This document shows, piece by piece, positions 7,936 through 61,500 of a DNA stretch of 64,000 bases. The notes under the pieces were generated by a model, which saw nothing but the letters and a program-made list of their open reading frames with translations, searched no databases and had not been told where the DNA came from. The position numbers and the translations under genes are program-made. Numbering within the stretch: position 1 is the first letter of the stretch; each line of letters begins with the position of its first letter. The stretch comes from Gammaproteobacteria bacterium (GTDB taxonomy: Bacteria > Pseudomonadota > Gammaproteobacteria > Enterobacterales > Psychrobiaceae). The stretch is from positions 1 to 64,000 of the forward strand of contig JABSRU010000021.1 in the NCBI GenBank assembly GCA_013214965.1, read 5' to 3'.

Positions 7936-8214
7936 TTCACATCCTCATGTTTAATCTAATTATGTAATAAGGATATCTAATAAAAGCATTTTTTTCTCTT
8001 TATTTATCAAATAATATGGTTCAGCCACAAAAAACCTTCATCAGTCTAATTTTTCCATAGAAAACAATCACTGTAATCAAAAGCATACATTCACTAAAAA
8101 TTTTATATTAGACGAAAATTTGCTATGGTGTGCCCGACACTGGTATATACCTCTGTGTAATTGGTATATTGCTGGTATGGAACGTTTTTTCCGGAGCGGC
8201 CTGAGATTAATGAT
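7936..8214. other. Intergenic AT-rich stretch upstream of wecB
   Basis: Very AT-rich sequence that must hold the wecB promoter on the minus strand. No gene, repeat or hairpin is evident. Short open frames around 8120 have no family resemblance until the POT-like remnant begins near 8215. Confidence 0.5.
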
Positions 8215-21283: not shown

Positions 21284-22156
21284 AACCTGAGATCGGTTTA
21301 AGCGACGACGATCTGATTCATCTCAACATCTGTTATATTTAGCTTTGGCTTATTTTCTTTCAAAGAATAAGCCACAAGTCCACCCATAATATTTAGCATT
21401 AAGCCATTGATATTTCTATGTCTAGAATGTTCAATTTGTGAAATGTTTTTCAATTGGTCATTGATTGTCTCAATGATAAACCTTCTAGATAACATCGCTC
21501 TATCCCAAATAGATAATACTTTGACTTTCATGTTTTTTCGCACATTCGTTACCAAAGTTACTCCTTTTTCTAGCAAGTTACTTTCTAATGCTTTACTTAT
21601 GTAGCCCTTATCGGCATAGAGTTTATCCGGCAAATCAAATGCCATACTTTCGACCGGTTGGGTATCGTGCACTTTCGCTGCGACAATTTCACCAAGATGA
21701 TTCACTATCAAATGGAGCTTAAAGCCAAAGAACCAACCCATTGTACCTTTACCTAGTTTAGCGATCCCTTCGAATGTTTTGTAGCGAGGGATTCGTAAAT
21801 TATGGCAAACTTTAATACTTGTAGAGTCAATGAACTCAAGACCTGAAGGCTTACCTTTAATTGTAGCAAAGTAACTGCATAACGGCACTAATGCCGTTGG
21901 CATTACCTCTAAAAATTTTGTGTAACTGAGTAAATTTGGAAATTGGTCTTTGTAAAAACGGCTAATGAATCCAGTGTAATAATTTTTGAAGTCTCGGTGA
22001 TGCGACATATGAATTTCACAAAAATCATCGACATCACAAAATATTTCAACTAACTTATCCATAGGCTCACCGTTTGTTGTGTTCAAATCGTTTCTTGGTC
22101 GAAAGATCTGATCACTAGGTGGGCTATTAGTTCAATTTTTATCCCGAGTTCAGGTT
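21284..22156 (-). mobile_element. IS982-family insertion sequence (internally deleted)
   Basis: Ends are set by imperfect inverted repeats: AACCTGAGATCGG at 21284-21296 and the complement of AACCTGAACTCGG at 22144-22156 (11 of 13 match). The element is ~873 bp; IS982 members are usually ~1 kb, consistent with the deletion inside its transposase. I see no target-site duplication next to the ends, which suggests a rearrangement after insertion. Confidence 0.75.
21298..22062 (-). pseudogene. IS982-family transposase with in-frame internal deletion
   Basis: Starts at MDKLVEIFCDVDDFC (ATG 22062, preceded by GGTGAG) and ends at 21298. The DDE core is recognisable: FIDSTSIKVCHNLRIPR, GTMGWFFGFKLHLIVNHLGE, LYADKGYISKAL, and RRFIIETINDQLKNISQIEHSRHR. 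Family members have ~35-40 residues between DDFC and the H-x-S-x-x-R-x-F-K-x-Y-Y motif; here DDFC runs almost directly into HMSHHRDFKNYY. A second small gap lies at AAKVHDTQPVE, where relatives have a longer loop. The frame is intact but the N-terminal region is incomplete, so activity is doubtful. The size of the missing part is from memory of the family. Confidence 0.75.
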
Positions 22157-22407
22157 AACTTATATACTATTATAAATCATTAAGTTAAACGGTTTAAATA
22201 AGTTCGCGTCAAGTATTGACAAGTTAGATAAAATATCGATGTGAATAATCTTAACCATTACTAAATAACCCGATATAATCAATTGAAAAATCAACAACCA
22301 CAAAAACAACTGTACATTAATACAGTTACTTAAACCAGCTCTTTAATCAGGGATTCAGTTAGCCGCAGTCATAATAGCGCTGACTTTTTTAGGACGTTTA
22401 GGCTTCA

Positions 22408-27919: not shown

Positions 27920-29821
27920 TTAAGTCTTTTTAACCGCACGTTTCTTGCGCCTAAACTTTGGCTTAGCACTGGATTTCAATCCAGCAAAGCGTGTGGGGTC
28001 AAGCTCCTTTGCTTCACTAATTAATTGCTCCAAATTACTGAGCAGCGGCGTCATAAATTGTTGATAACTTAATTGCTTTTCAGAAATTTTATTAAGATTA
28101 GCTTCCCATAACGCGGTCATATCTGGCGTTGTTGCTTCGGTGGGTAATGCATCAATTAAAGCAAATCCGGTCGCGGTCGCTTTAATATCTTTACCCTGAC
28201 GCACTAAAAATTGACGCTTAAATAGCAACTCAATAATCGATGCCCTGGTGGCTTCAGTTCCTAAACCGTCGGTGTCTTTTAGTACTTTTTTAATCGCTTT
28301 ATCAGTGACAAAACGTGCAATCCCGGTCATCGCACCGAGCAATGTCGCATCGGTAAAGGATTTAGGTGGAGATGTTTCCTTTTCGATCACTTGAGAATCA
28401 CTGCATTGTAAAATATCACCAACCTTCAGCTTAGGCAGCGTTTGATTTTGTTCACTATTTTTATTTAGTAACGTTTTCCAACCCATATCAGTGGTCTTTT
28501 TAGCCGTTGCAGTAAATAAGCCACCAGCAATATTGAGCTCAACATGCTGTTCTTGATAACGATAAGCTGGATAAAATTGGATTAAATATTGGGTAGATAT
28601 CAGCAGATAAATGTTTAATTCGGTGGCCGAAAGTTTAGCGCCTACCCCAGATTTAGTGGTCGGTATAATCGCGTGGTGAGCATCGACTTTACTGTCGTTC
28701 CAAGCGCGAGATTTTAAACTTAGATCGGCATTGGCTATCGCCGTCGCTAATTGATTAGCGTTGCTGTTAACGGCCTTAACCACTGAGTTTGCTTGCTTTA
28801 AATGACCCAGGGGTAAATAACGACAATCGGAACGAGGATAAGTGATCAGTTGGTATTTTTCATACAGCCCCTGACACACATCGAGCACCACTTTTGCTGA
28901 CAAGCCAAAACGTTTGGCGGCATCTATTTGCAAACTCGACAAATTATAAGGCAATGGCACCGCACTTTGCTTGCTGCTGGCATTAAACTTTTCGACCTTA
29001 GCCGGTTGACCTATCGTTCGACTGGCCACATTATCGGCCAAGCGACGATAAATCACTCGCCCTTCTTCATCTTGATAAGCGGCACATGCTTCACTAGGCT
29101 GCCATTTAGCTTGGAACGATTCGCCATTGTCGCAGATCACCGTCGCCATTACTTCATAAAAAGGTTTGGTGACAAAATTTTCAATCTCACGATCACGCCT
29201 TGCTACTAAGCCTAAAATAGGCGTTTGCACTCGACCAACCGAAAGTACCCCTTGATAGCCGCCCCGCTGCCCTTGAATAGTATAAGCGCGTGTCATATTC
29301 AAACCATACAACCAATCAGCACGTGAACGCGCTAATGCCGAAGTAGACAACCCAATAAACTCTTTATTATTACGCATCACCGACAAAGATTTTTTAATCG
29401 CACTGGGATTTAAATCATTAACTAATAATCGGGTCACCTGATTTAGCTTATTACCTTTAACCCCACAATATGAAATCACTTCATCAACCAGTAACTGCCC
29501 TTCACGATCAGGATCACCCGCATTAACCAGTTGGTCTGCTTGCTTAATCAACTTTTTTAATACTGATAATTGTTTTTTTGTTTTTGGTTTAGCGGTTAAT
29601 TTCCAGACTTCAGGCGTAATAGGTAAATGTTCCAATTGCCATTTTTGATAGATTGGATCATAGGCATCGGGCTGAGCTTGTTCTAACAAATGACCAATAC
29701 ACCAACTGACACAATCACCATTGGCGAAACTAATAAAGCCATCACCCTTTTGACCCGTTCCAGGCAAAGCTAACGCAATCGCCCGTCCTAAGCTTGGTTT
29801 TTCAGCAATATATAAAATCAT
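27920..29821 (-). CDS. topB: DNA topoisomerase III (type IA)
   Basis: Relaxes and decatenates single-stranded-containing DNA. The 633 residues compare with 653 in E. coli TopB. N-terminal Toprim domain: MILYIAEKPSLGRAIA (catalytic Glu7) and DPDREGQLL. The catalytic tyrosine is in ITYPRSDCRYLP and counts to Tyr328, the same number as in E. coli. Other conserved stretches are TRAYTIQGQRGGYQGVLSVGRVQTP and DGLGTEATRASIIELLF. The C-terminus is short and basic (KPKFRRKKRAVKKT). It is convergent with tamB and divergent from the S9 peptidase, with only ~130 bases between the two start codons. Confidence 0.95.
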   Translation of the reverse strand: MILYIAEKPSLGRAIALALPGTGQKGDGFISFANGDCVSWCIGHLLEQAQPDAYDPIYQKWQLEHLPITPEVWKLTAKPKTKKQLSVLKKLIKQADQLVNAGDPDREGQLLVDEVISYCGVKGNKLNQVTRLLVNDLNPSAIKKSLSVMRNNKEFIGLSTSALARSRADWLYGLNMTRAYTIQGQRGGYQGVLSVGRVQTPILGLVARRDREIENFVTKPFYEVMATVICDNGESFQAKWQPSEACAAYQDEEGRVIYRRLADNVASRTIGQPAKVEKFNASSKQSAVPLPYNLSSLQIDAAKRFGLSAKVVLDVCQGLYEKYQLITYPRSDCRYLPLGHLKQANSVVKAVNSNANQLATAIANADLSLKSRAWNDSKVDAHHAIIPTTKSGVGAKLSATELNIYLLISTQYLIQFYPAYRYQEQHVELNIAGGLFTATAKKTTDMGWKTLLNKNSEQNQTLPKLKVGDILQCSDSQVIEKETSPPKSFTDATLLGAMTGIARFVTDKAIKKVLKDTDGLGTEATRASIIELLFKRQFLVRQGKDIKATATGFALIDALPTEATTPDMTALWEANLNKISEKQLSYQQFMTPLLSNLEQLISEAKELDPTRFAGLKSSAKPKFRRKKRAVKKT

Positions 29822-29829
29822 AGTTAAAC

Positions 29830-29850
29830 ACTGTATACAAAAACAGTATC
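29830..29850 (+). promoter_or_regulatory. Putative operator upstream of the S9 peptidase gene
   Basis: Contains ACTGTATACAA (29830-29840) followed by an ACAGT that makes an inverted repeat with ACTGT. The 11-mer ACTGTATACAA also occurs (reverse strand) at the TonB-receptor promoter, and its GTATACAA core at the ornithine cyclodeaminase-like gene. Confidence 0.45.
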
Positions 29851-29948
29851 ATAACAGGTAATTAAAAATGGGCAAACTACGTTTAACTGGTATTACTATT
29901 AATTTTTTGTTAAATTCGCGGTTAATAGTAGGAATAAAGGAATATAAA

Positions 29949-31904
29949 ATGTTAATAAAACTACTGCTAACCCTGATGGTTAGCTCATTACCTTTCATCA
30001 ATTACAGTGCTATCGCCGCCATTAATCCAGACAAATTATTTGAACACTCCAAATATCAAAATGCCAAAATATCCCCTGATGGTCAACATTTAGCGGTCGC
30101 AATGCAGTACCAAGGAAAAATCACTTTAGTTGTTTTAGGATTAGAAAAAATGAAACTGATCGGTTCATTACGCTTTCCCGGTAATGAAGAAGTTGGAAGT
30201 TATCATTGGGTCAATAATGAACGATTGGTTGTTTCGATTGTTGAAAAAAGACCATGGCTTGAAGAGCCTCAATTTTACGGTGAGTTGTATGCAGTTAATT
30301 TCGACGGTAGCAAGGGAAAAATGATTTATGGTTACCGAGCTGGCGAAATGCAAACGGGCTCTCGGATTAAAAAGAAAGAATCGACGCGAGGTTGGGGCGA
30401 AATTATTGATATTTTACCCGAAGATAAAAAACATATTTTAATTAGCTCAACATTAATGAGCAGCACAGGTGAAAGCACACCTTCGGTTCACAAGCTTAAT
30501 GTTTACACCGGTGTTATTAAAAAGAAAATAGCTCGTTCGCCATTACCGTTTGCTCATTTTTTAACGGATCAACAAGGTCAACTACGAGCAGTTGTCGGCA
30601 CTGACAAAGATGATAAACGTCAACTTTATCTGAGAAAAGACCATCAATGGCAGCATGTGAACAATAATACTGTCAGTAACGATGTAATCCCCTTTGCCAT
30701 TGATGCGTCAGGTAAGTATTTGTTTACTATCGACAATTATCAACAAGATTTAACCGGGATATTTAAATTAAACCTGAATGATTTGTCATACAGCGAAGTA
30801 TTTACTGACCAAAACGTTGATGTTACCGATATTGAAATGACTACTAACGACCGCTCAGCCTATGCGATTAGAGTCGACGAGGGCTACCCGACTTACCTAA
30901 TGATTAACGGGAAAGCTGAAGAGGCTAAGGTATTTAAGGATCTCTTAAAGTCTTTTCCCTACAATAAAGTCACCATCACCAGTAAAACCGCAGATGGCAA
31001 CATCTATATTGTCTTGGTGTCATCTGACATTTCTGCCGGTCAATTATATTTATTCGACAAGAAGAAAAACCAACTCAAATTTCTATTTAAATTTAAAGCA
31101 GATATTGAAAGCGCTGAACTAGCACAGGTTGAACCGATAAAATTTACAGCAAGCGATGGTCAAAATATTCATGGCTATTTCACCCCAGCTAAAGGTAGTA
31201 GCTCAGAAAAAATAGCACCGTTGGTCGTGTTAGTTCATGGGGGTCCTCATGGAGTAAGAGATTTTTGGAGTTTTTCGGCTCAAGTGCAATATTTAGCCCT
31301 TAACGGTTATTCAGTGTTACAAGTTAACTATAGAGGTTCTGGTGGCTATGGCGAAAAGTTTGAATTAGCTGGACACCGGGCTTGGGGCAATGTTATCCAG
31401 CAAGATATTTTAGATGGCTATTCATGGCTAATTAGCCAAAAGAAAGCAACCTCTAACAACGCTTGTATTATGGGCGCAAGCTTTGGCGCATACTCGGCGA
31501 TTCAAAGCGCCGCTATTTTTCCTGATAGCTATCAATGTGCGATCGCCAATGCTGGTATTTACGATTTGGAATTGATGTTTGACGATGGTGATATCCGTCT
31601 TCGTCGTTCAGGGTTAAGTTATCTCAAGCAGGTACTAGGCACCGATCAAACGCTATTAAAGCAGATGTCACCGGTTAATTATGCACAAAAAATTAAGATC
31701 CCATTATTTTTAGCCCACGGTAAAGAAGATGAGCGAGCGCCCTATGAGCATGCCAAACGTTTGAGAAAAGCCCTCGACAAAGCCAATAAGTCGTATCAAT
31801 GGTTTGTCTTAGATAAAGAGGGGCACGGTTTTTATAATCCTGAAAATCAAAAAAATTACATGAAGAAAGTCATTCAATTTTTAGATCAGCATTTAACAAA
31901 ATAA
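29949..31904 (+). CDS. Secreted S9-family prolyl oligopeptidase-type peptidase
   Basis: Exported serine peptidase of the alpha/beta-hydrolase fold, cleaving short, often proline-containing peptides. The start at 29949 is chosen because it yields a signal peptide (MLIKLLLTLMVSSLPFIN) and is preceded by AAAGGAAT; an earlier in-frame ATG at 29868 would put 27 unlike residues first. The N-terminal ~400 residues form a beta-propeller (PDGQHLAVAMQYQGK repeats). The catalytic domain has LVVLVHGGPHG, the nucleophile elbow MGASFGAYS (Ser ~511), AHGKEDERAP for the Asp and KEGHGFYNP for the His. Fits with the downstream Xaa-Pro aminopeptidase and receptor as a peptide-utilisation set. Confidence 0.92.
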   Translation: MLIKLLLTLMVSSLPFINYSAIAAINPDKLFEHSKYQNAKISPDGQHLAVAMQYQGKITLVVLGLEKMKLIGSLRFPGNEEVGSYHWVNNERLVVSIVEKRPWLEEPQFYGELYAVNFDGSKGKMIYGYRAGEMQTGSRIKKKESTRGWGEIIDILPEDKKHILISSTLMSSTGESTPSVHKLNVYTGVIKKKIARSPLPFAHFLTDQQGQLRAVVGTDKDDKRQLYLRKDHQWQHVNNNTVSNDVIPFAIDASGKYLFTIDNYQQDLTGIFKLNLNDLSYSEVFTDQNVDVTDIEMTTNDRSAYAIRVDEGYPTYLMINGKAEEAKVFKDLLKSFPYNKVTITSKTADGNIYIVLVSSDISAGQLYLFDKKKNQLKFLFKFKADIESAELAQVEPIKFTASDGQNIHGYFTPAKGSSSEKIAPLVVLVHGGPHGVRDFWSFSAQVQYLALNGYSVLQVNYRGSGGYGEKFELAGHRAWGNVIQQDILDGYSWLISQKKATSNNACIMGASFGAYSAIQSAAIFPDSYQCAIANAGIYDLELMFDDGDIRLRRSGLSYLKQVLGTDQTLLKQMSPVNYAQKIKIPLFLAHGKEDERAPYEHAKRLRKALDKANKSYQWFVLDKEGHGFYNPENQKNYMKKVIQFLDQHLTK

Positions 31905-31925
31905 CAATTAATTAAATTTCTCCCC

Positions 31926-31956
31926 AACACCAAGTGATGTGCGATTGCTTGGTGTT
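31926..31956 (+). terminator. Hairpin after the S9 peptidase gene
   Basis: AACACCAAG (31926-31934) pairs with CTTGGTGTT (31948-31956), 13-base loop. It lies 22 bases past the stop but has no good T-run, so it may be a weak terminator. Confidence 0.45.
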
Positions 31957-31995
31957 ATCAAACCCGTAATTTAACAGACATCCCAATAACTCAGT

Positions 31996-32012
31996 GGTAT
32001 ATTGTATACAAA
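31996..32012 (+). promoter_or_regulatory. Putative operator upstream of the ornithine cyclodeaminase-like gene
   Basis: Contains the 10-bp palindrome TTGTATACAA (32002-32011) extended leftward as GGTATATTGTATAC. Read on the opposite strand it gives GTATACAATATACC, sharing ATACAATATAC with the TonB-receptor site and ATACAATAT with the MFS site. Located 21 bases upstream of the start codon. Confidence 0.5.
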
Positions 32013-32032
32013 CAACCACTATTGGACAGATC

Positions 32033-32983
32033 ATGAAACAATTAAATGCTTCCCAGGTGCAATCCGCTTTGCGCTTTCCCGAACTTATTGCCGCGTTAAA
32101 ACAAGCTTTTTGTAGCGACATCACCGTGCCGATGCGTCATCACCATGATATGGAGAACCCTAGTGCATCGCGTGAAACAACGCTGTTACTAATGCCAGCA
32201 TGGCAAGCGGGTGAAAAGGCCGGTGTTAAGATGGTGACGGTAGCGCCAGATAATAGCGCGCTTAATTTGCCCTCGATTCAAGGTATTTATCTATTATTGG
32301 ATTTACGCACCGGCACGCCTGAAATTATGATGGATGCTCCCACGTTAACCACTAATAGAACAGCGGCGGCATCGGCACTAGCGGCAAGCTTTTTAGCCCG
32401 TAAAGATGCTTCTCACTTGTTTGTTGTAGGTACTGGCGCATTATCGAGTCAATTAATCCGTGCCCATCATGCTGTTTCGCCATTAACTCATGTCACAGTA
32501 TGGGGTCGTAATGAAGACAAAGCTGCTCAAGTATTAACCCAAGTGGCTGATCTTAATTTAATCGCTGCAACCACCACTTCAATTGAAGCAGGTATCAACC
32601 AAGCAGATATTATCTCGGTGGCAACGTTAAGCCAAACCGCCTTAATTGAAGGTAAATGGTTAAAGCCAGGTCAACATCTCGATTTAGTTGGTGCTTATCG
32701 CCCAGATATGCGTGAAGCCGATGACGAAGTGATGCGCCGTGCCACCATTTTTGTCGATTCTCGTCCCGGTGCAACCAAAGAAACTGGCGATATCAAAATC
32801 CCGCTAGCTGAAGGTGTCATTACCCTTGACGATATCAAAGCTGATTTATTTCAATTAAGTGCTGGCGAACATCAAGGTCGTACTGATGATCAACAAATTA
32901 CCGTATTTAAATCGGTCGGTCACGCGCTCGAAGATCTCGCGGCGGCTAAATTAGTAGCGCAATATTATGAGGATCAAGTATGA
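32033..32983 (+). CDS. Ornithine cyclodeaminase/mu-crystallin family protein
   Basis: A ~316-residue NAD(P)-dependent enzyme family; characterised members include ornithine cyclodeaminase and delta1-pyrroline-2-carboxylate or ketimine reductases. Visible: PMRHHHDMENP...TTLLLMPAW, GVKMVTVAPDN, the substrate/dinucleotide region DAPTLTTNRTAAASALAASFLAR, the Rossmann glycine motif FVVGTGALSSQLI, and DLVGAYRPDMREADD. The start MKQLNASQVQ at 32033 is favoured; an upstream GTG would read through the putative operator. The stop overlaps the start of the Xaa-Pro aminopeptidase gene (ATGA), so the two are coupled. With a prolidase-type partner, a role in proline or hydroxyproline (Pyr2C) metabolism is more likely than ornithine deamination, but this is inference. 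Confidence 0.88.
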   Translation: MKQLNASQVQSALRFPELIAALKQAFCSDITVPMRHHHDMENPSASRETTLLLMPAWQAGEKAGVKMVTVAPDNSALNLPSIQGIYLLLDLRTGTPEIMMDAPTLTTNRTAAASALAASFLARKDASHLFVVGTGALSSQLIRAHHAVSPLTHVTVWGRNEDKAAQVLTQVADLNLIAATTTSIEAGINQADIISVATLSQTALIEGKWLKPGQHLDLVGAYRPDMREADDEVMRRATIFVDSRPGATKETGDIKIPLAEGVITLDDIKADLFQLSAGEHQGRTDDQQITVFKSVGHALEDLAAAKLVAQYYEDQV

Positions 32984-34281
32984 ACCCTTATCAACAACGT
33001 CGCCAACTATTAAGCCAACAGTTAGATCAGAACAGTGTCGCCATTATTGTCGGTAACAAAGAACAGATCCGAAATCTCAATATTAAGTTTCCGTTTAAAC
33101 AAGATAATGATTTCTATTATTTAACCGGCTTTAATGAACCTGACTGTGTTGCAGTGATCCGCCCAGGGCATGTACAGCCTTACGTGATTTTTGCCCGTGA
33201 CTTAGATCAGGAAATGGAAGTGAGATTTGGCTTTCGCGCCGGACTCAAGGGACTCAAAACTAATCATCAAGTTGACGAAAGTTATCCGATTGAGCAATTT
33301 GAGTCATTAATTGTCGAATTATTTGAGCAACGCACCAACATATTCATTAGCGATAATCATGGCGTTTATCAAGCTAATTTATACCACTGGCTTAGTGCGT
33401 CAGCGCGCGACGCTAAGTTTGATAGTATTAAAGCTCATCGTAGTATTCATCAATTAAGTCCGTTACTCGCACAAATGCGTGTCATCAAAGACCACCATGA
33501 AATTGCCCTCATTAAACATGCGGTTGATGCTTCAGTCGCTGGTCACATTGCGACAATGCAAGCATCTCGCGTTGGGATTAATGAAGGGCAATTAAGCGCG
33601 ACCTTTAACCGTACTATTAGTGATTTTGGCTGTAATGAAGTGGGCTATCCCAATATTGTCGCTTGTGGTGATAATGCGATTTGTCTCCACTACGAAGATA
33701 ACAACAGCGATTGTGACGATAACAAATTATTGTTAGCGGACATGGGCGGTGAATATCAACATTACACCGCAGATATCACGCGGACTTTTCCAATTAATGG
33801 TAAATTCACCCCGCCGCAGGCGACTATTTATAACCTCGTACTTAAATCATTAGATGCTGCCATCGCGCAAGTTAAACCCGGTGCTCATTGGAACAGTTTG
33901 TACGAAACCGCAATGGCGGTGTTAGCACAAGGTTTATTGGATTTAGGGATTTTACGCGGCAGTTTCGAACAAGTGATGGCTGACGAAAGTTACCTTGCCT
34001 TTACCGTTCATAAAACTGGTCATTGGATGGGATTACATGTCCATGATGTCGGTGCTTATCATGATCAAGACGGCGCATGGGTTAAGCTAACCCCGAAGAT
34101 GGTCTTTACCATTGAACCAGGTATTTATATTCCGAGCGATTGCTTAGCGGTAGAGCCACAATGGCGCGGTATTGCGGTGCGGATTGAAGATGACATTTTA
34201 GTGACGGATACTGGCTATCAAAACTTATCGATTAAAGCACCCCGTACTATCAATGATATTGAACAAATAATGCAAGATTAA
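32980..34281 (+). CDS. pepP: Xaa-Pro aminopeptidase (M24B)
   Basis: Removes N-terminal residues preceding proline; a cytoplasmic dimetal pita-bread enzyme. The 433 residues fit PepP (E. coli 441). N-terminal AMP_N domain (QQRRQLLSQQLDQNSVAIIVGN...NDFYYLTGFNEPD). The catalytic domain carries the metal ligands in order: LLADMGGEYQHYTADITRTFP (two Asp), HKTGHWMGLHVHDVG (His), FTIEPGIYIP (Glu) and GIAVRIEDDILVT (Glu). Overlaps the cyclodeaminase-like gene by four bases and is followed by a terminator shared with the convergent TonB receptor. The context (S9 peptidase, receptor, transporter) indicates use of proline-containing peptides. Confidence 0.93.
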   Translation: MNPYQQRRQLLSQQLDQNSVAIIVGNKEQIRNLNIKFPFKQDNDFYYLTGFNEPDCVAVIRPGHVQPYVIFARDLDQEMEVRFGFRAGLKGLKTNHQVDESYPIEQFESLIVELFEQRTNIFISDNHGVYQANLYHWLSASARDAKFDSIKAHRSIHQLSPLLAQMRVIKDHHEIALIKHAVDASVAGHIATMQASRVGINEGQLSATFNRTISDFGCNEVGYPNIVACGDNAICLHYEDNNSDCDDNKLLLADMGGEYQHYTADITRTFPINGKFTPPQATIYNLVLKSLDAAIAQVKPGAHWNSLYETAMAVLAQGLLDLGILRGSFEQVMADESYLAFTVHKTGHWMGLHVHDVGAYHDQDGAWVKLTPKMVFTIEPGIYIPSDCLAVEPQWRGIAVRIEDDILVTDTGYQNLSIKAPRTINDIEQIMQD

Positions 34282-34290
34282 AAAAGCATA

Positions 34291-34335
34291 AAAAAACCCA
34301 ACCACGAGAGAGAGTATGGTTGGGCTTCTTTATAA
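34291..34335. terminator. Bidirectional terminator between pepP and the TonB receptor gene
   Basis: CCCAACCA (34297-34304) pairs with TGGTTGGG (34317-34324), with A-rich sequence left and CTTCTTTAT right. Convergent genes end on both sides. Confidence 0.7.
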
Positions 34336-34349
34336 ACTTATGTTATTAG

Positions 34350-37322
34350 TTAGAACTCATAACGAGCGGTTAAGCTAACATAACGAGCACCGATACGTGC
34401 TTTGGTACGGCTCCATTCGGGGTTAACGACTGAGTCACCATCACCATTACGAATCGCATGACGCTCTTGCAAAGAAACAGGAGTATCTGAGTTTAGTACG
34501 TTATAAACAGTAGCTTTAAAGCTTAAGTTACCATCGAATAAGTTGGTGGTATAAAGTAACGACATATCAACTTCTTTGGTCCAAGGTGTTTTACCAGCAC
34601 CACCACGCGGCGCAGCGTTACCATCAGCATCATAAAATGATGTTGCACCATACCATTGACTCACACAAGAATCCCACACAGAACCTTTAGCACAAGTATC
34701 AACGTTCACCGGGTGATAGCCCAACTTGCTTAATGGACGTCCTGAATTAATTCGACTCGCAAAACCAAGTACTAAATCTTCAGTTAGCTTATATGAACCG
34801 CTGAATTTAATCGCATGACGACGATCGTTCGGTAAATTACCGGTCGCGTGATCCATTAAATCAGCGTAATCGTATGATGTTGTCCAACCTGGATCGGCTT
34901 GACCATTATCGGTTTTAACCAAACCTTCAGTGTTACCCCAACCATGAGACCAAGTATAAGAGGCGTTAATATTTAACTTGTCAGTGGCTTTACCAGCAAG
35001 GGTAAACTCTAATGCTGCATATTTACGCGTTGGCTTTGGCATCGCCATATCTTCTGCACTGATATTAATCGTATCAATTTGACCATCACCGTCAAAGTCA
35101 TAGCTCATTTGTAAATCAGTACCAGGATTTAGCAATACGTAGTAACTACCTTGACCAACATTATCAGTAATATTATTGGCTTTAAAATACTTAGCTAGTA
35201 CCGGTGCAACATCGGTATCTTCTACTGAACGTTTTAAATCACGGTAAACAAAGCGTACGCCAGCAGTCATGTCTCCTTCAAAGACTTCTTGCTGATAGCC
35301 TAATGTGAATTCATCAGAGTACATACTATCTAGGTTAGCCGAAGCAATTAAACCAGGTTCATCGATGCCTTTTTGACGGACATACATATCACGAAGCTCA
35401 GCGCCGCGTACTGGAGAGCCATCACTTTTTAACACTGGTGCGCCATTACTATCCACATCACTTAACTCAAAGTAGTTAAAAGTTTCACGTTGAGTTGAGC
35501 CTTGAGTAATATTCATGTTCGCTGATACAGGTTGGAAATAACGACCGTAAGTAGCAAATAACTTAGATGAACCATCACCGGATAAATCATAGATAGCTTG
35601 TAAACGTGGGGCAAATTGACCTTTAATGTCAACATATTTGCGACCATCGGACACACTATTTGACTGTTCTGAATAACGCAAACCGATATTTAATACTAAG
35701 TTATCAGTGGTCTGCCATGAATCTTGAACATAAATAGCGGTTGACTTAGCGTCGGAATCAGTAAATGTGGTACGAATGCGCTTTTCAATATAATCGTTAC
35801 CAGCCACTTGACCAGAACGATCACCAGCACCAGCAGTTTTAACGGTCCACCAAGCTTGCGCATCACCGATACCATTTTGTGATTTAGCATAATCAACACT
35901 AATCTTGTAGCTGTCGATACCAAATTTAAGCGCGTGATCATCAAGATCCCAAGACAAATCAACTCGGAACTGGTCGCGAATAAACGTTGCGTCAGTAATT
36001 TGTGATGCAGAATGCTTACTTAACGTAACAGTGGTGCCAGACCGTTCATCCCAGACACCGGGTAAGCTACTCGTGGCACTGTTAAATTCTTGCTCTTTGG
36101 TACGTCCGGCAATAACATCAATTGAAACGCTATCTGATAGTTGGCCAGTGTATTTAACCCCAAAGACTTCGCCACCCGCTTTAGACTTATAGATACTTGA
36201 TTTATCACCGACTTGATTGGTGGCAACATCATAAGCAAAGGTTGTTCCTGAGCCATTCTCTTTAAAGCTCATGCCGGTAAATTCTAAAACATGCTCATCG
36301 GTAATAAACCAATCAATTTTAGCAAACCAACGATCTGAGGTATCCTCACCGTCATTATCAGTAGTTACTTTGCGATTATCATAATTCGTTTTACGGGGTG
36401 AGAATAATCCATAAGCAAACAACTTATCTTCAATCAGTGCACCGCTAGCCCAGATCCGTGCTTCGGTATAAGTTTTAGTATCGTACTGTGAGCTAGAAGT
36501 AACATCACCTGAAAGTGTTTGTAAATTAACGTGATGACTTCTTAGGCTTTCAGGATCAACGCGTAATTGCGCGCCAAATGTAAAGTCATTACTCCCTGAT
36601 TTAGACACTGCATTAACGATACCGCCCATTGCGCCGCCAAATTCAGGATCAACACCACCGGTTTTAATATCACTTTGCGCGATAGCTTCCCATGGCAAGC
36701 TAATTGAGCCAATACCTTTACGAATAGAAGTAACGTTAAGACCGTTTAAGTAGTAACCATTTTCAGCCGATGAACTACCGCCAATACTGGCTGCATCAAA
36801 TTCCGAATTAGAACTAGCACCAGGCGCTAATAACACCATGCTTTCAAAACCGTTATCAACGGGTAACATCGCTAATTCGTCAGCATCCAATGACATACCG
36901 CCCGATGAAGAAGCAGTATCAACGCGTCTAAACACATTGCCCGTTACAGCGATGCGCTCTATATCACTACCGATTGAATACAATGATAAATCGATAATGG
37001 CCGCGTTACCAACAACAACGTTAATCTCATCTTCAGAGTGAGAGATGTAACCATCTTTAAGAATCGTTAATGAATACTTACCAATCGGTAGTTTTCGCAG
37101 CAGATAATGACCATTACTGTCAGTTTTGATAGTACGAGTGAAGCCTTTACCTTTATGCTTTAGAACGATGGTTGCATCTGATAAATCAGAGTTGTCGCCC
37201 GCGGTAATATGCCCTTTAACTAAACCACCAAATGATTCTGCCGACACCATTGGCGCCGCTGTAAAAAGCAATGCGATAATTGACGATGCGACTGCAGTCT
37301 TTTTAAAACTAAAGTTTGTCAT
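34350..37322 (-). CDS. TonB-dependent receptor with N-terminal carboxypeptidase-regulatory-like domain (Oar type)
   Basis: A 990-residue outer-membrane transporter. The start at 37322 (MTNFSFKKTAVASSIIALLF) is chosen for its signal peptide and AGGAAAT ribosome-binding site; 20 further residues upstream in frame are unlikely. After cleavage near SAESF comes an Ig-like carboxypeptidase-regulatory domain (~30-115: LSDATIVLKHKGKGFTRTIK...YSLTILKDGYI), a plug domain (~125-250: AVTGNVFRRVD...GGVDPEFGGAMGGIVNAVSKSG) and a ~700-residue barrel. The last residue is Phe, as usual for outer-membrane barrels. It is divergent from the MFS gene and shares an operator-like sequence with it. Substrate is not readable; the neighbours suggest peptides. 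Confidence 0.92.
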   Translation of the reverse strand: MTNFSFKKTAVASSIIALLFTAAPMVSAESFGGLVKGHITAGDNSDLSDATIVLKHKGKGFTRTIKTDSNGHYLLRKLPIGKYSLTILKDGYISHSEDEINVVVGNAAIIDLSLYSIGSDIERIAVTGNVFRRVDTASSSGGMSLDADELAMLPVDNGFESMVLLAPGASSNSEFDAASIGGSSSAENGYYLNGLNVTSIRKGIGSISLPWEAIAQSDIKTGGVDPEFGGAMGGIVNAVSKSGSNDFTFGAQLRVDPESLRSHHVNLQTLSGDVTSSSQYDTKTYTEARIWASGALIEDKLFAYGLFSPRKTNYDNRKVTTDNDGEDTSDRWFAKIDWFITDEHVLEFTGMSFKENGSGTTFAYDVATNQVGDKSSIYKSKAGGEVFGVKYTGQLSDSVSIDVIAGRTKEQEFNSATSSLPGVWDERSGTTVTLSKHSASQITDATFIRDQFRVDLSWDLDDHALKFGIDSYKISVDYAKSQNGIGDAQAWWTVKTAGAGDRSGQVAGNDYIEKRIRTTFTDSDAKSTAIYVQDSWQTTDNLVLNIGLRYSEQSNSVSDGRKYVDIKGQFAPRLQAIYDLSGDGSSKLFATYGRYFQPVSANMNITQGSTQRETFNYFELSDVDSNGAPVLKSDGSPVRGAELRDMYVRQKGIDEPGLIASANLDSMYSDEFTLGYQQEVFEGDMTAGVRFVYRDLKRSVEDTDVAPVLAKYFKANNITDNVGQGSYYVLLNPGTDLQMSYDFDGDGQIDTINISAEDMAMPKPTRKYAALEFTLAGKATDKLNINASYTWSHGWGNTEGLVKTDNGQADPGWTTSYDYADLMDHATGNLPNDRRHAIKFSGSYKLTEDLVLGFASRINSGRPLSKLGYHPVNVDTCAKGSVWDSCVSQWYGATSFYDADGNAAPRGGAGKTPWTKEVDMSLLYTTNLFDGNLSFKATVYNVLNSDTPVSLQERHAIRNGDGDSVVNPEWSRTKARIGARYVSLTARYEF

Positions 37323-37385
37323 GCTATTTCCTATTGTAATTATTGTTAACGAATAATGCGGGGATGTTAAAACAATTAACATTAA

Positions 37386-37405
37386 TTGTATACAGTATAT
37401 TGTAT
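37386..37405 (-). promoter_or_regulatory. Putative operator upstream of the TonB receptor gene
   Basis: Contains overlapping palindromic elements: TGTATACA (37388-37395) and ATACAGTATATTGTAT (37390-37405). On the minus strand it reads ATACAATATACTGTATAC, containing ATACAATATAC (shared with the cyclodeaminase-like gene) and ACTGTATACAA (shared with the S9 peptidase gene). Confidence 0.5.
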
Positions 37406-37492
37406 TTTAATTTCGTAAGATGTTGAAATTATTACTAGCATAACTAAAAATCTAAATTTTCATTAACTAATCAATGACCGCCAAACTTGAAA

Positions 37493-37508
37493 TTGGATAC
37501 AATATCCA
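37493..37508 (+). promoter_or_regulatory. Putative operator upstream of the MFS transporter gene
   Basis: GGATACAATATCC (37495-37507) is an inverted repeat (GGATA, 3-base centre, TATCC) sharing the ATACAATAT core with the operators at 31996 and 37386. It lies 43 bases before the start codon. Confidence 0.45.
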
Positions 37509-37550: not shown

Positions 37551-39107
37551 ATGACTGAGACCACCTTGAATGACAATTTAGCCCAGGCTAAACGCCTTGG
37601 CTTTTTCGCCTCCATCACCTCCCTTAGTTATGTCTTTTGGGTTGTTGGCGGCATGGAAATGGTTGAACGCTTGGCTTTTTATGGCGTTAAAACTATTGCG
37701 GGTCTTTATGCGACGGATCCGCAATCGAAAGGTGGATTAGGGATCACCATGACCGAATTTGGCACCATATTAATGGCTTGGGCCTTATTTCAGTCTTTTG
37801 TACCAGTATTTATTGGTGGCTTAGCTGATCGCATTGGCTATAAAGAAACCATAGCCCTAGCAACAGTGACTAAAATATTGGCCTATTTAGTGATGGCAAT
37901 GTTCCCAAGCTATTGGGGCTTCTTTGCTGGGGCAAGCTTATTAGCCTTAGGGACAGGACTGTTTAAACCGGGGATTCAAGGCACGCTCGTCAAATCCACC
38001 ACTAAAGAAAACTCCACCATGGCTTGGGGGGTTTTTTATCAAACGGTTAATATCGGCGGTTGGCTTGGCCCATTAATGGCCGCGCAATTACGAATACTCG
38101 ATTGGCAAAATGTGTTTTATGCCTGCGCTGTGATTATCAGCTTGAATTTTTTCTTATTATTAATTTATAAAGAGCCAGGAAAAGCACAACGATTAGCCCA
38201 TCAAGCCAAAGTCGCCAGCGGAGAAATCAGCCAAAAATCATTATGGCGTACCTCTCTAAAAGAAATCGCACAACCTCATTTACTGTGGTACACCATCATA
38301 TTTTCCGGATTTTGGTTTATGTTTATGGCGTTATTTGATGTGTTACCGGTTCATATCCGTGACTGGATTGACACCTCAACCATCGTCACCTCATTATTTG
38401 GTGATACCGGTACTGACTCTGGTGTTTGGCACACTCTACTGGCTATTTCCCCCGATGGTCAATACATTCAGCCCGAAGGGATCATGAACATTAACTTTGG
38501 TTTGATCATGCTAACGTGTTTTTTAATTGCGGGATTAGCTGCGCGCTTAGGCACCCTTAATAGTCTAATTATTGGCACACTGTTATGTAGTGGCGGCTTA
38601 TTTATTATTGGTGGTGTCAATGCCGCATGGTTTATTGTGCTAGCTATTGTTACCTTTAGTATCGGTGAAATGCTCGCCAGTCCAACCTCAAGTAAACTGA
38701 TTGGTAATATCGCCCCTGATGACAAAAAAGCAATGTACTTAGGCTTTAAAGATTTGCCCCTTGGTATCGGCTGGGTCGCTGAAAGTTTTGTCGGACCGAC
38801 GCTTTATGACAAGTATGCCGCAAAAGAAACACTGGCCCGTGAATTACTACAGCAAGAGTATGCATTTTCCGCACAACAAATTGCTAATATTGCCCAAGGT
38901 GAATATTTTAGTGCCTTAGTTAAAGTGAGTGACAAAAGCGCTAGCGTGTTAACCCAACAACTATACGACGCCAACAATATTGGCTTGGTCTGGTTTGTGA
39001 TGGCGTTAGTGGGAGTGGCTTCGGCGATTGGGCTAGTATCTTATGCCAAATGGTTAATCAGCGCACGCAGCAGTTTGACTAAAGCACAGATAGCGGCAAT
39101 TGATTAA
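37551..39107 (+). CDS. MFS transporter of POT/PTR-like type
   Basis: A 518-residue polytopic inner-membrane protein with about 12-14 spans. The N-terminal segment GGMEMVERLAFYGVKTIAGLYA resembles the POT signature (E-x-x-E-R-x-x-F/Y-Y-G), and LALGTGLFKPGIQGTLVKST corresponds to the GxGxFKPxxxxxV region. It is longer than the POT gene at 8495 and diverges from it in the C-terminal half (GIGWVAESFVGPTLYDKYAAKE). It is transcribed divergently from the TonB receptor, with a shared operator-like element, so it probably carries across the inner membrane what the receptor brings through the outer one. A hairpin at 39152-39185 follows. Confidence 0.85.
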   Translation: MTETTLNDNLAQAKRLGFFASITSLSYVFWVVGGMEMVERLAFYGVKTIAGLYATDPQSKGGLGITMTEFGTILMAWALFQSFVPVFIGGLADRIGYKETIALATVTKILAYLVMAMFPSYWGFFAGASLLALGTGLFKPGIQGTLVKSTTKENSTMAWGVFYQTVNIGGWLGPLMAAQLRILDWQNVFYACAVIISLNFFLLLIYKEPGKAQRLAHQAKVASGEISQKSLWRTSLKEIAQPHLLWYTIIFSGFWFMFMALFDVLPVHIRDWIDTSTIVTSLFGDTGTDSGVWHTLLAISPDGQYIQPEGIMNINFGLIMLTCFLIAGLAARLGTLNSLIIGTLLCSGGLFIIGGVNAAWFIVLAIVTFSIGEMLASPTSSKLIGNIAPDDKKAMYLGFKDLPLGIGWVAESFVGPTLYDKYAAKETLARELLQQEYAFSAQQIANIAQGEYFSALVKVSDKSASVLTQQLYDANNIGLVWFVMALVGVASAIGLVSYAKWLISARSSLTKAQIAAID

Positions 39108-41723: not shown

Positions 41724-42608
41724 TTATAATACGTCGGCTTTTCTCAATGCGGCCGTTAGTAAAGCATGATGTTCTTGAGATAATTGCGTTAATGGTAATC
41801 GTAAATGACCATGTTCAATCAGCTTCATCGCTGTTACACACCATTTCACCGGAATTGGATTCGCTTCGACAAATAAATGCTGGTGCAAATCAATTAATTT
41901 TTCATTGATAATCTGAGCTTGACGCTTATCGCCAGCCAAGGCATGACGACACATTTCACTCATTAGCTTAGGCGCCACATTGTTGGTCACCGAAATAACG
42001 CCATCACCGCCTAGCAACATAAACTCAAGACCAGTACTATCATCACCACTAAACGTTAAAAAATCATCATTAACGAGAGCTTTGATGTCTTTAAGCCGTG
42101 ATAAGTTCCCTGTTGCTTCTTTAATCCCAACAATATTTTCAACTCGTGCTAACGTAGCCACTGTTTCAGGCAACAAATCGCAACAAGTTCGCCCAGGTAC
42201 ATTATATAAAATTTGAGGAATAGTGGTTGAATTAGCGATAGCCGTATAATGAGCAATCAAACCTTTTTGAGTCGGTTTGTTATAGTAAGGGGTTACCCCT
42301 AACATCGCTACAATGCCGGTATCGGCTAAGCCTTTGGTTAATTCAATCGCCTCTAAGGTCGAGTTAGAGCCATTACCACCAATCACGGGAATACGACCCT
42401 TAGCGAATGCGACAACCTGCTTTACCACATTGATATGTTCAGCCATCGTCAACGTGGTCGACTCACCGGTGGTGCCAACAGCAACAATCCCATTGGTTCC
42501 TTGGGCAATGTGCATTTCAACTAAACGTTCTAAACTTTTATAATCAACATCACCATTTGAAAATAATGGTGTAACAAGCGCTACAATACTGCCAGATAAC
42601 ATCTGCAA
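41724..42608 (-). CDS. dapA: 4-hydroxy-tetrahydrodipicolinate synthase
   Basis: Condenses pyruvate with aspartate semialdehyde, first committed step of lysine and meso-diaminopimelate synthesis in the cytoplasm. 294 residues, standard length (E. coli 292). Motifs: [24 protein letters not shown] (pyruvate carboxylate binding), the catalytic tyrosine in [15 protein letters not shown] (Tyr ~133) and the Schiff-base lysine in [12 protein letters not shown] (Lys ~161), [24 protein letters not shown]. Upstream of bamC in the same operon and divergent from gcvR/bcp, the classic gammaproteobacterial arrangement. Confidence 0.96.
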
Positions 42609-42747
42609 TTCCTCTGATAATTCCGGAAAGGTATGGTACGGTTCAACACTAATAAACTCAAGGAATAATCGCTGAAAACTATGTTAAAATGTTTATTTGA
42701 TTCAAACTATTTCTCTTCATTCTAAGATATCAAGGATTCGGTCAACG

Positions 42748-60852: not shown

Positions 60853-61500
60853 CTAAATTAACGCGACACAAGGTAAATCATTGCCACTATTGGCTGGATG
60901 AATCACATATTCGCCATGATATTTCACCTGAGATTTATAGTCGGTGACTTTATGCAATAACATCTGATGTTGATGGCAAAAATTAATCACGGCTTGACTA
61001 TCACCCCGTAAATAAATTGATAACGGTTTAACCAAATCCAACGATTGGTTAAAACACTGCTTAAATTTTTGTGGACAAATCACTAAGGACGCTGCACCAC
61101 CCGACTTAATATTTACTTTTTTCCCCACGGGCACATCAGTTGTCACCAACCACTGCTCATCACTTAATGAAGTAAGCACCTGGTTAATGGCCGATTGATT
61201 AACTCCTAAATTAGCGCCCTCAGCATCAAATATTGGCCGCAATGTATACACCAAATCGACAAATTGTTGCTTTAGCAAAGCGTGCCGCCCCAATGTACGA
61301 GCTTGTTGCTGCCAATGCTTTAACGACACCACTGCACAAATGTCGAAACGATGGTTTTTTAATGCCTTGGTCACCCAAGCACTAAAAAAATGGGTTTCGC
61401 TTAAAGGGTTTATCGGTGTTTTTCCTGCTTGCTGTGATGTAGCCAAATCGGCTAAGCCAGCATTAACCACGCGGTATATTTCGGCTGAAAAAGAATTCAT
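60853..61500 (-). CDS. DUF2913 family protein
   Basis: A 215-residue cytoplasmic protein. The pattern EIYRVVNAGLADLATSQQAGKTPINPLSETHFFSAWVTKALKNHRF at the N-terminus and the ending VTDYKSQVKYHGEYVIHPAN are what I associate with the DUF2913 family of Vibrio, Shewanella and relatives; function is unknown. No signal peptide, membrane span or known catalytic motif is visible. It stands alone, with ~250 bases of unassigned sequence on its 3' side (60600-60852), in which I see no gene. Confidence 0.7.
   Translation of the reverse strand: MNSFSAEIYRVVNAGLADLATSQQAGKTPINPLSETHFFSAWVTKALKNHRFDICAVVSLKHWQQQARTLGRHALLKQQFVDLVYTLRPIFDAEGANLGVNQSAINQVLTSLSDEQWLVTTDVPVGKKVNIKSGGAASLVICPQKFKQCFNQSLDLVKPLSIYLRGDSQAVINFCHQHQMLLHKVTDYKSQVKYHGEYVIHPANSGNDLPCVALI

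Follow-up and report, generated by a model that had tools for sequence, protein, structure and literature searches.

HypR regulons of the Alteromonadales and their relatives are described, in the HypR text of PMC5343134, as comprising a TonB receptor, proline (di)peptidases, a proline di/tripeptide permease, a gene of the ornithine cyclodeaminase (OCD) family and collagenases. The operators of the FadR subfamily are built from TKGT/ACMA boxes, with a two-nucleotide GT-AC spacing in the case of HypR (PMC4494728), and negative control by HypR is on record for Sinorhizobium, as cited in PMC5343134. PMC5343134 also reads the OCD genes as ornithine cyclodeaminases, so that HypR function 'probably expands onto ornithine degradation', and ties glycine cleavage to HexR. 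Here we analyse a 64,000-nucleotide stretch (hereafter the window) of the forward strand of contig JABSRU010000021.1, positions 1 to 64,000, from a Gammaproteobacteria bacterium of the family Psychrobiaceae (assembly GCA_013214965.1), in which an initial annotation had read four intergenic sites as one shared operator of an undescribed regulon for proline-containing peptides. It is very likely, judging from the sequence, that the sites at 32002, 37386 and 37493 are operators of a GntR/FCD regulator, HypR, encoded on another contig (C66) of the same genome, and that the one at 29830 serves topB, the gene for DNA topoisomerase III, as a LexA box.

The palindromic TKGT-NN-ACMA operator takes the form TTGTATACAA at 32002 and at position 38168 of contig C66, and is present in one-mismatch forms at 37386 and 37493. 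The exact core TTGTATACAA (32002-32011) lies 21 bp 5' of the ATG of an operon encoding a predicted Δ1-pyrroline-2-carboxylate (Pyr2C) reductase of the OCD superfamily (32033-32983, plus strand) and a Xaa-Pro aminopeptidase-like M24 peptidase (PepP/AmpP-like; 32980-34281, plus strand), the two genes overlapping by 4 bp. The putative operator of a TonB-dependent receptor gene (34350-37322, minus strand), TTGTATACAG (37386-37395), carries one mismatch in the core and is located 63 bp 5' of the likely ATG at 37322, with an extra half site, TTGTAT, at 37400. That of an MFS transporter gene (37551-39107, plus strand), TTGGATACAA (37493-37502), likewise with one mismatch, is found 48 bp 5' of the ATG at 37551. 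Every string quoted in the initial annotation is indeed present, namely ACTGTATACAA at 29830, TTGTATACAA at 32002, TTGTATACAGTATATTGTAT at 37386 (minus strand ATACAATATACTGTATACAA) and GGATACAATATCC at 37495-37507. The last of these palindromes is a by-product: the conserved operator of the MFS promoter, ATTGGA|TACAAT, spans 37492-37503, centred 3.5 bases to the left, and is one base off the form taken in four orthologous promoters, ATTGTATACAAT or TTTGTATACAAT; the single substitution in the window's copy also makes the GGATACAATATCC palindrome.

Bare pattern counts are too weak to decide, with six one-mismatch copies of TTGTATACAA in the window against 5.07 expected, and four copies of TGTATACA (one of them, at 61243, outside the region) against 1.23 expected, a number reached in 3 of 100 shuffles; the conclusion rests on trained matrices and on orthologous promoters. 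Two matrices were built: (i) the first from 20 sites with the exact core in other genomes, including promoters of orthologues of the window genes; and (ii) the second from 12 sites before other genes only (hyp operons, collagenase, genes of the second-receptor type and trans-3-hydroxyproline dehydratase), one of them from the own genome and four found by way of the first matrix. Both are limited in that every training site is an exact core, so that exact cores are favoured. With the first matrix, the sites at 32002, 37493, 37386 and 29831 take ranks 1 to 4 in the window. With the second, the 32002 site ranks first (20.5 bits), 37493 second (17.7 bits) and 37386 third (17.5 bits) across the 64 kb; matches as strong occur in 1, 7 and 7 of 200 shuffles, respectively, and three sites as strong as these together in none of the 200.

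The core and its spacing are preserved in the orthologous promoters. In all four congeners having an orthologue of the MFS gene (73-82% identity), exact TTGTATACAA occupies the aligned position ahead of the start codon, and the exact core precedes all three congener orthologues of the reductase gene (76-78% identity; one is a 34-residue fragment at a contig end). Conservation is partial for the receptor, where a scan of nine full-length homologues (33-38% identity), partial matches being left out, disclosed three exact cores, two one-mismatch forms and four promoters with none, that is, five of nine with at most one mismatch. Outside the genus, 33 of the 80 reductase loci found in the named collection were scanned, and the core, with at most one mismatch and within 50 bp, occurs in 15 of them. 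In three further loci (Thalassotalea algicola, T. loyana and Alteromonadaceae M269) the site precedes a run of MFS gene, reductase gene and pepP, with the MFS proteins of these runs 26-30% identical to that of the window. The remaining 15 loci, which display no site, comprise 12 with Bacteroidota titles, two metagenome-assembled genomes (MAGs) of Kiloniellaceae and one gammaproteobacterial MAG, where the core has two mismatches. In loci of Marinobacter, Ferrimonas balearica and Thalassotalea loyana, hyp genes are linked to the reductase-pepP pair, and the hyp intergenic region has the operator as well. Of the 41 reductase loci listed, 17 also contain, within the same stretch, a homologue of trans-3-hydroxyproline dehydratase (at least 49% identity). 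As a separate observation, Pseudoteredinibacter-type loci (L059, L064, L072 and L106, at about 7960-7978) display two overlapping cores, TTGTATACTGTATACAA, before the reductase gene, a possible tandem operator.

The element at 29830 belongs elsewhere. It comprises ACTGTATACAAAAACAGT (29830-29847), with an exact CTGT-N8-ACAG, and is most likely the LexA (SOS) box of the divergent topB (27920-29821, minus strand; TIGR01056, 747.6 bits against a cut-off of 515.75), the nearest gene, with 8 bp between them, merely resembling HypR operators; on present evidence it is not itself a HypR operator. Orthologues of topB were found in 12 of the 13 genomes searched (11 of the 12 other genomes, 55-82% identity), and CTGT-N8-ACAG before the gene is exact in eight of the 12 loci, own included, carries one mismatch in two and has no clear form in two. 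The HypR-like core is absent from the other 11 topB promoters, in which the first matrix gives at most 7.0 bits compared to 13.0 here, and the nearest relative (82% in topB) displays ACTGTTTTTTCATACAGT, where the LexA positions are retained and the HypR-like centre is lost. The pattern ACTGTAT-N6-ACAGT is also found in the genus before recA, lexA, imuA and dinB, all named by scores over the model cut-offs. A second perfect SOS box in the window, ACTGTACATTAATACAGT (22309-22326), lies between an IS982-family transposase gene (21298-22086) and a TamA-like gene (22408); the congener G002 displays an SOS box between a tamA-like gene, named by eye, and dinB, and since the dinB of the own genome, with its own box, sits on contig C67, the box at 22309 may be a leftover.

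A dual function of the 29830 site, as LexA box for topB and at the same time HypR operator for the exported S9 prolyl-oligopeptidase-family peptidase on its other side (29949-31904, plus strand; PF00326, 2.5e-46), is unlikely. The site retains CTGTATACAA, a core that is also found before the reductase gene in the Pseudoteredinibacter-type loci, and stands 108 bp before the likely S9 start (the open reading frame opens at 29868, and the start with a signal-peptide-like N-terminus was placed at 29949 by eye); the S9 peptidase is a plausible collagen-peptide enzyme, and a DPP-IV-type S9 gene in G002 has the exact core 312 bp upstream. Set against this, the 29831 match, although fourth with the first matrix (0.8 expected per shuffled window), reaches 10.7 bits with the second, a score that a shuffled window would hold 2.96 times on average, so that as a member of the operator family it does not rise above chance. 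The core precedes none of the nine S9 homologues scanned, which, at 28-39% identity, include no close orthologue, nor, as said, any other topB, and the S9 gene adjoins topB in the own genome only among the 12 topB loci, within the flanks covered. The refuting outcome named in the initial annotation, a motif not conserved before orthologues, is therefore not observed for the MFS and reductase genes, is observed in part for the receptor gene and is observed for the S9 gene. The proposal of one operator at four sites stands for 32002, 37386 and 37493, by matrix rank and conservation, and falls for 29830; the reductase, pepP, receptor and MFS genes keep their place in the proposed regulon, and the S9 peptidase loses it.

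The candidate regulator gene, hypR, is located on contig C66 of the own genome (G000), at 41965-42636, outside the window, and encodes a protein comprising GntR and FCD domains. The gene order is hypD-hypE-hypH-hypR, followed directly by a gene for a 198-residue protein, with hypO divergent and TTGTATACAA between hypO and hypD at C66:38168. HypE passes the NF010578 model of 4-hydroxyproline epimerases (596 bits, cut-off 376), whereas the names of hypO, hypD and hypH, which score under the model cut-offs, rest on homology and on gene position. The gene for HypR adjoins hypH in six of the seven genomes of the genus that have HypR, and the contig ends there in the seventh. Orthology to the published HypR is likely, on the strength of family, operon position and operator type. 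A close HypR was not found in G004 and G008; the latter nevertheless has a fitting site before a trans-3-hydroxyproline dehydratase homologue, and the absence in G008 is uncertain, as its assembly is 93% complete and in about 450 contigs.

Binding of the three operators by another GntR/FCD paralogue of the genome, instead of the C66 protein, is decidedly unlikely. There are five FCD-domain matches in the own genome, four over the cut-off, and the sites of FadR-subfamily members are alike (PMC4494728); the FCD gene whose surroundings were read for operators is that of C66. This gene, on the other hand, lies within an operon that carries the operator, and its hypH neighbour is kept in six of the seven genomes of the genus. 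Highly improbable is the proposal of the initial annotation, a hitherto undescribed regulon for proline peptides that has an unknown repressor of its own and includes the S9 peptidase. The genes are functionally coherent, the named strings are all there, and none of the five FCD-domain matches falls inside the window (other regulator families were not sought there). Nevertheless, the same operator is carried by a 4-hydroxyproline operon that encodes a GntR/FCD regulator, published HypR regulons contain the same kinds of genes (PMC5343134), so that 'undescribed' does not hold, and the S9 site is a LexA box. The accompanying surmise of a GntR- or LacI-like repressor encoded elsewhere proves probable for the GntR type, with the C66 gene as the candidate.

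Beyond these loci, exact TTGTATACAA in the own genome also precedes the genes of a second TonB receptor (C44), an M43 protease with PKD domains (C91) and the glycine-cleavage genes gcvTHP (C123), whereas TGTATACA also marks an M9 collagenase gene (C68:25725) and, at C112:17822, that of a proline-racemase-family protein closest to trans-3-hydroxyproline dehydratases (375.8 against a cut-off of 540 bits). The dehydratase and reductase genes of the own genome, lying on different contigs, are apparently joined by the operator alone. Across five genomes of the genus, 28 of the 39 exact cores precede hydroxyproline, proline-peptide, protease, TonB-receptor or glycine-cleavage genes (6/8 in G000, 3/4 in G002, 5/5 in G003, 7/12 in G005 and 7/10 in G007), as assigned by reading the neighbours, without a control pattern treated alike; the exact sites of G001 (four) and G006 (seven) fall outside this count. 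The loosest of the 28 comprise (i) the DPP-IV gene mentioned above; (ii) an M4 protease gene 271 bp off; (iii) a dihydrodipicolinate-synthase-family gene (31% to HypD); and (iv) an M1 peptidase gene and the C121 gene, both predicted reading frames that span the site. In three of the five genomes the operator accompanies glycine-cleavage genes, in two gene orders: gcvTHP in G000 (L030), and, in G005 (L239) and G007 (L257), gcvH-gcvP, with the site between them and a sodium:alanine-symporter-type gene, Pfam-tested in G005 only.

Three further sites are recorded in their own right. On C121 (L029, 7983-10903), exact TTGTATACAA, a strong HypR-type site, precedes a small gene with an M9-collagenase domain, its N-terminus lipoprotein-like by eye; a chemoreceptor gene comes next in the same direction, and chemotaxis towards collagen peptides may be co-regulated there. 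On C90 (L026 9965; G000:C90:11964), an exact core of 16.8 bits lies between sdhC and gltA, and may serve HypR or another GntR regulator such as PdhR, sdh and gltA having been placed under an expanded PdhR regulon (PMC5343134). Exact TTGTATACAA is also conserved between a beta-propeller-like and a response-regulator-like gene in G005 (L243) and G007 (L253), with no fitting gene.

Several results weigh against the assignment of the operators to HypR. Exact TTGTATACAA is only mildly enriched in the own genome (eight copies against four of the reversed control), and no gene of a fitting kind accompanies 11 of the 39 exact sites; these sites include one on C95 and congener sites near glycosyltransferase-like, dehydrogenase-like and LysR-like genes and an ABC-ATPase/acyltransferase-like pair, several of them named by eye. 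The sites so dismissed may be incompletely judged, given that C121, first taken as chance, has a Pfam collagenase domain. No site was found before four distant MFS homologues (27-32% identity) or two reductase paralogues (37-39% identity) scanned, and promoter hexamers under operators show no clear enrichment over shuffles (32 against 23.2, standard deviation 4.7). In the genomes of other families with a HypR homologue (48-63% identity), nine of ten display no hyp gene within 1.5-kb flanks, and the ten together hold the pattern only 36 times against 27 for the control. Over 58 genomes, pattern and reversed control number 86 against 42 in the 17 where a close HypR homologue is present, and 112 against 101 elsewhere, in 41 genomes (Fisher p 0.009), the seven genus genomes with HypR contributing 50 against 15; this comparison is given little weight, because the genomes cannot be treated as independent samples and the window's genus supplies most of the excess. 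That the three sites are chance matches in AT-rich intergenic DNA, as the bare one-mismatch counts might suggest, is scarcely credible, since the conservation of core and spacing in orthologous promoters already contradicts chance and no shuffle holds three sites this strong.

The reductase of the window scores 407.5 bits (cut-off 322) with NF004793, the model of bifunctional Δ1-pyrroline-2-carboxylate/Δ1-piperideine-2-carboxylate reductases, matches PF02423, and has as its second-best PDB match 6t3e, a Δ1-pyrroline-2-carboxylate reductase. The pepP-like protein matches PF00557 and PF05195, and scores 332.7 bits with NF008131, under the cut-off of 465. The receptor displays a carboxypeptidase-regulatory-like N-terminal domain (PF13620, PF25183 and PF00593). 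The transporter (PF07690) is weakly like H+/oligopeptide symporters: it does not pass a POT-family model, the best NCBIfam match being TIGR00924 with 66.5 bits against a cut-off of 130.2, and MFS_1 is the only Pfam match.

From the operators and their conservation, the regulator gene with its neighbourhood and the target list, all read from sequence, we infer binding of HypR to the sites, repression and the nature of the inducer. Bound to ATTGTATACAAT, at the -10 region or immediately beyond it, a HypR dimer would block transcription; the operators touch or overlap -10-like hexamers (31975-32003, plus strand; 37426-37399, minus strand; 37474-37503, plus strand), an arrangement that fits repression. 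When hydroxyproline, which is probably the inducer, or a related imino acid accumulates from collagen-like peptides, HypR would let go, and the receptor, the permease, the Xaa-Pro aminopeptidase, the Pyr2C reductase and the 4-hydroxyproline operon would be derepressed together, along with two M9 collagenase genes, the M43 protease, the second receptor, the probable trans-3-hydroxyproline dehydratase and, probably, glycine cleavage. Collagenases and metalloproteases would yield peptides to be imported by the receptor and the MFS transporter, and the Xaa-Pro aminopeptidase would release residues preceding proline or hydroxyproline. The resulting 4-hydroxyproline would follow the hypE/O/D/H route, trans-3-hydroxyproline would be converted by the dehydratase into Pyr2C and by the reductase of the window into proline, and glycine would enter the cleavage system. 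One operator type extending from proteases to glycine cleavage would match the Gly-Pro-Hyp make-up of collagen. Whether HypR acts in this genus as a regulator of whole-collagen use, governing collagenases, metalloproteases, receptors, permease, proline peptidases, both hydroxyproline branches and glycine cleavage, is in our judgement evenly balanced.

The analysis places four genes of the window in a known regulon, indicates which gene encodes its regulator and strikes off one false member. The relatives found here further suggest that, for the OCD-family members of HypR regulons, Pyr2C reductase in the trans-3-hydroxyproline pathway may be a better reading than ornithine cyclodeaminase. If the glycine-cleavage sites prove genuine, a single regulator would adapt the bacterium to the amino-acid make-up of collagen. 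Among the literature matches listed, no paper retrieved for TTGTATACAA was on the topic by title, and no report of glycine cleavage under HypR was found.

Compared to the described systems, the proteobacterial HypR regulon is the closest, sharing (i) the GntR regulator, the operator with two-nucleotide spacing and the hypE/O/D/H core (PMC5343134, PMC3223726, PMC4494728); and (ii) a receptor, proline peptidases, a permease, an OCD-family gene and collagenases among the targets (PMC5343134). It differs in that the OCD gene is here read as the Pyr2C reductase of the trans-3-hydroxyproline branch, to which the probable dehydratase gene with the operator would also belong, and not as ornithine cyclodeaminase, and that the operator is found before glycine-cleavage genes and before M43/M6 protease genes; these points were not found in the HypR text of PMC5343134 and are what appears new relative to it. 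HypR of Streptomyces coelicolor is likewise a GntR/FadR-subfamily repressor of hydroxyproline genes and an M9 collagenase gene, as established there by gel shift and reporter (PMC6608401), with a different motif, CTNTGC(A/C)ATGTCAC, the comparison here being one of regulator family, targets and motif. The pathway of t3HypD and Pyr2C reductase similarly pairs a dehydratase of the proline-racemase superfamily with a reductase of the OCD superfamily (PMC4113996), whereas the two genes of the own genome are parted, as noted, onto separate contigs. A LexA box at the topB promoter also has a counterpart in the LexA regulon of Vibrio parahaemolyticus, where binding was demonstrated by gel shift (PMC3323433), and is proposed here from sequence alone. 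Taken together, the system appears to be an ordinary HypR regulon, its assignment well supported and the new extension modest.

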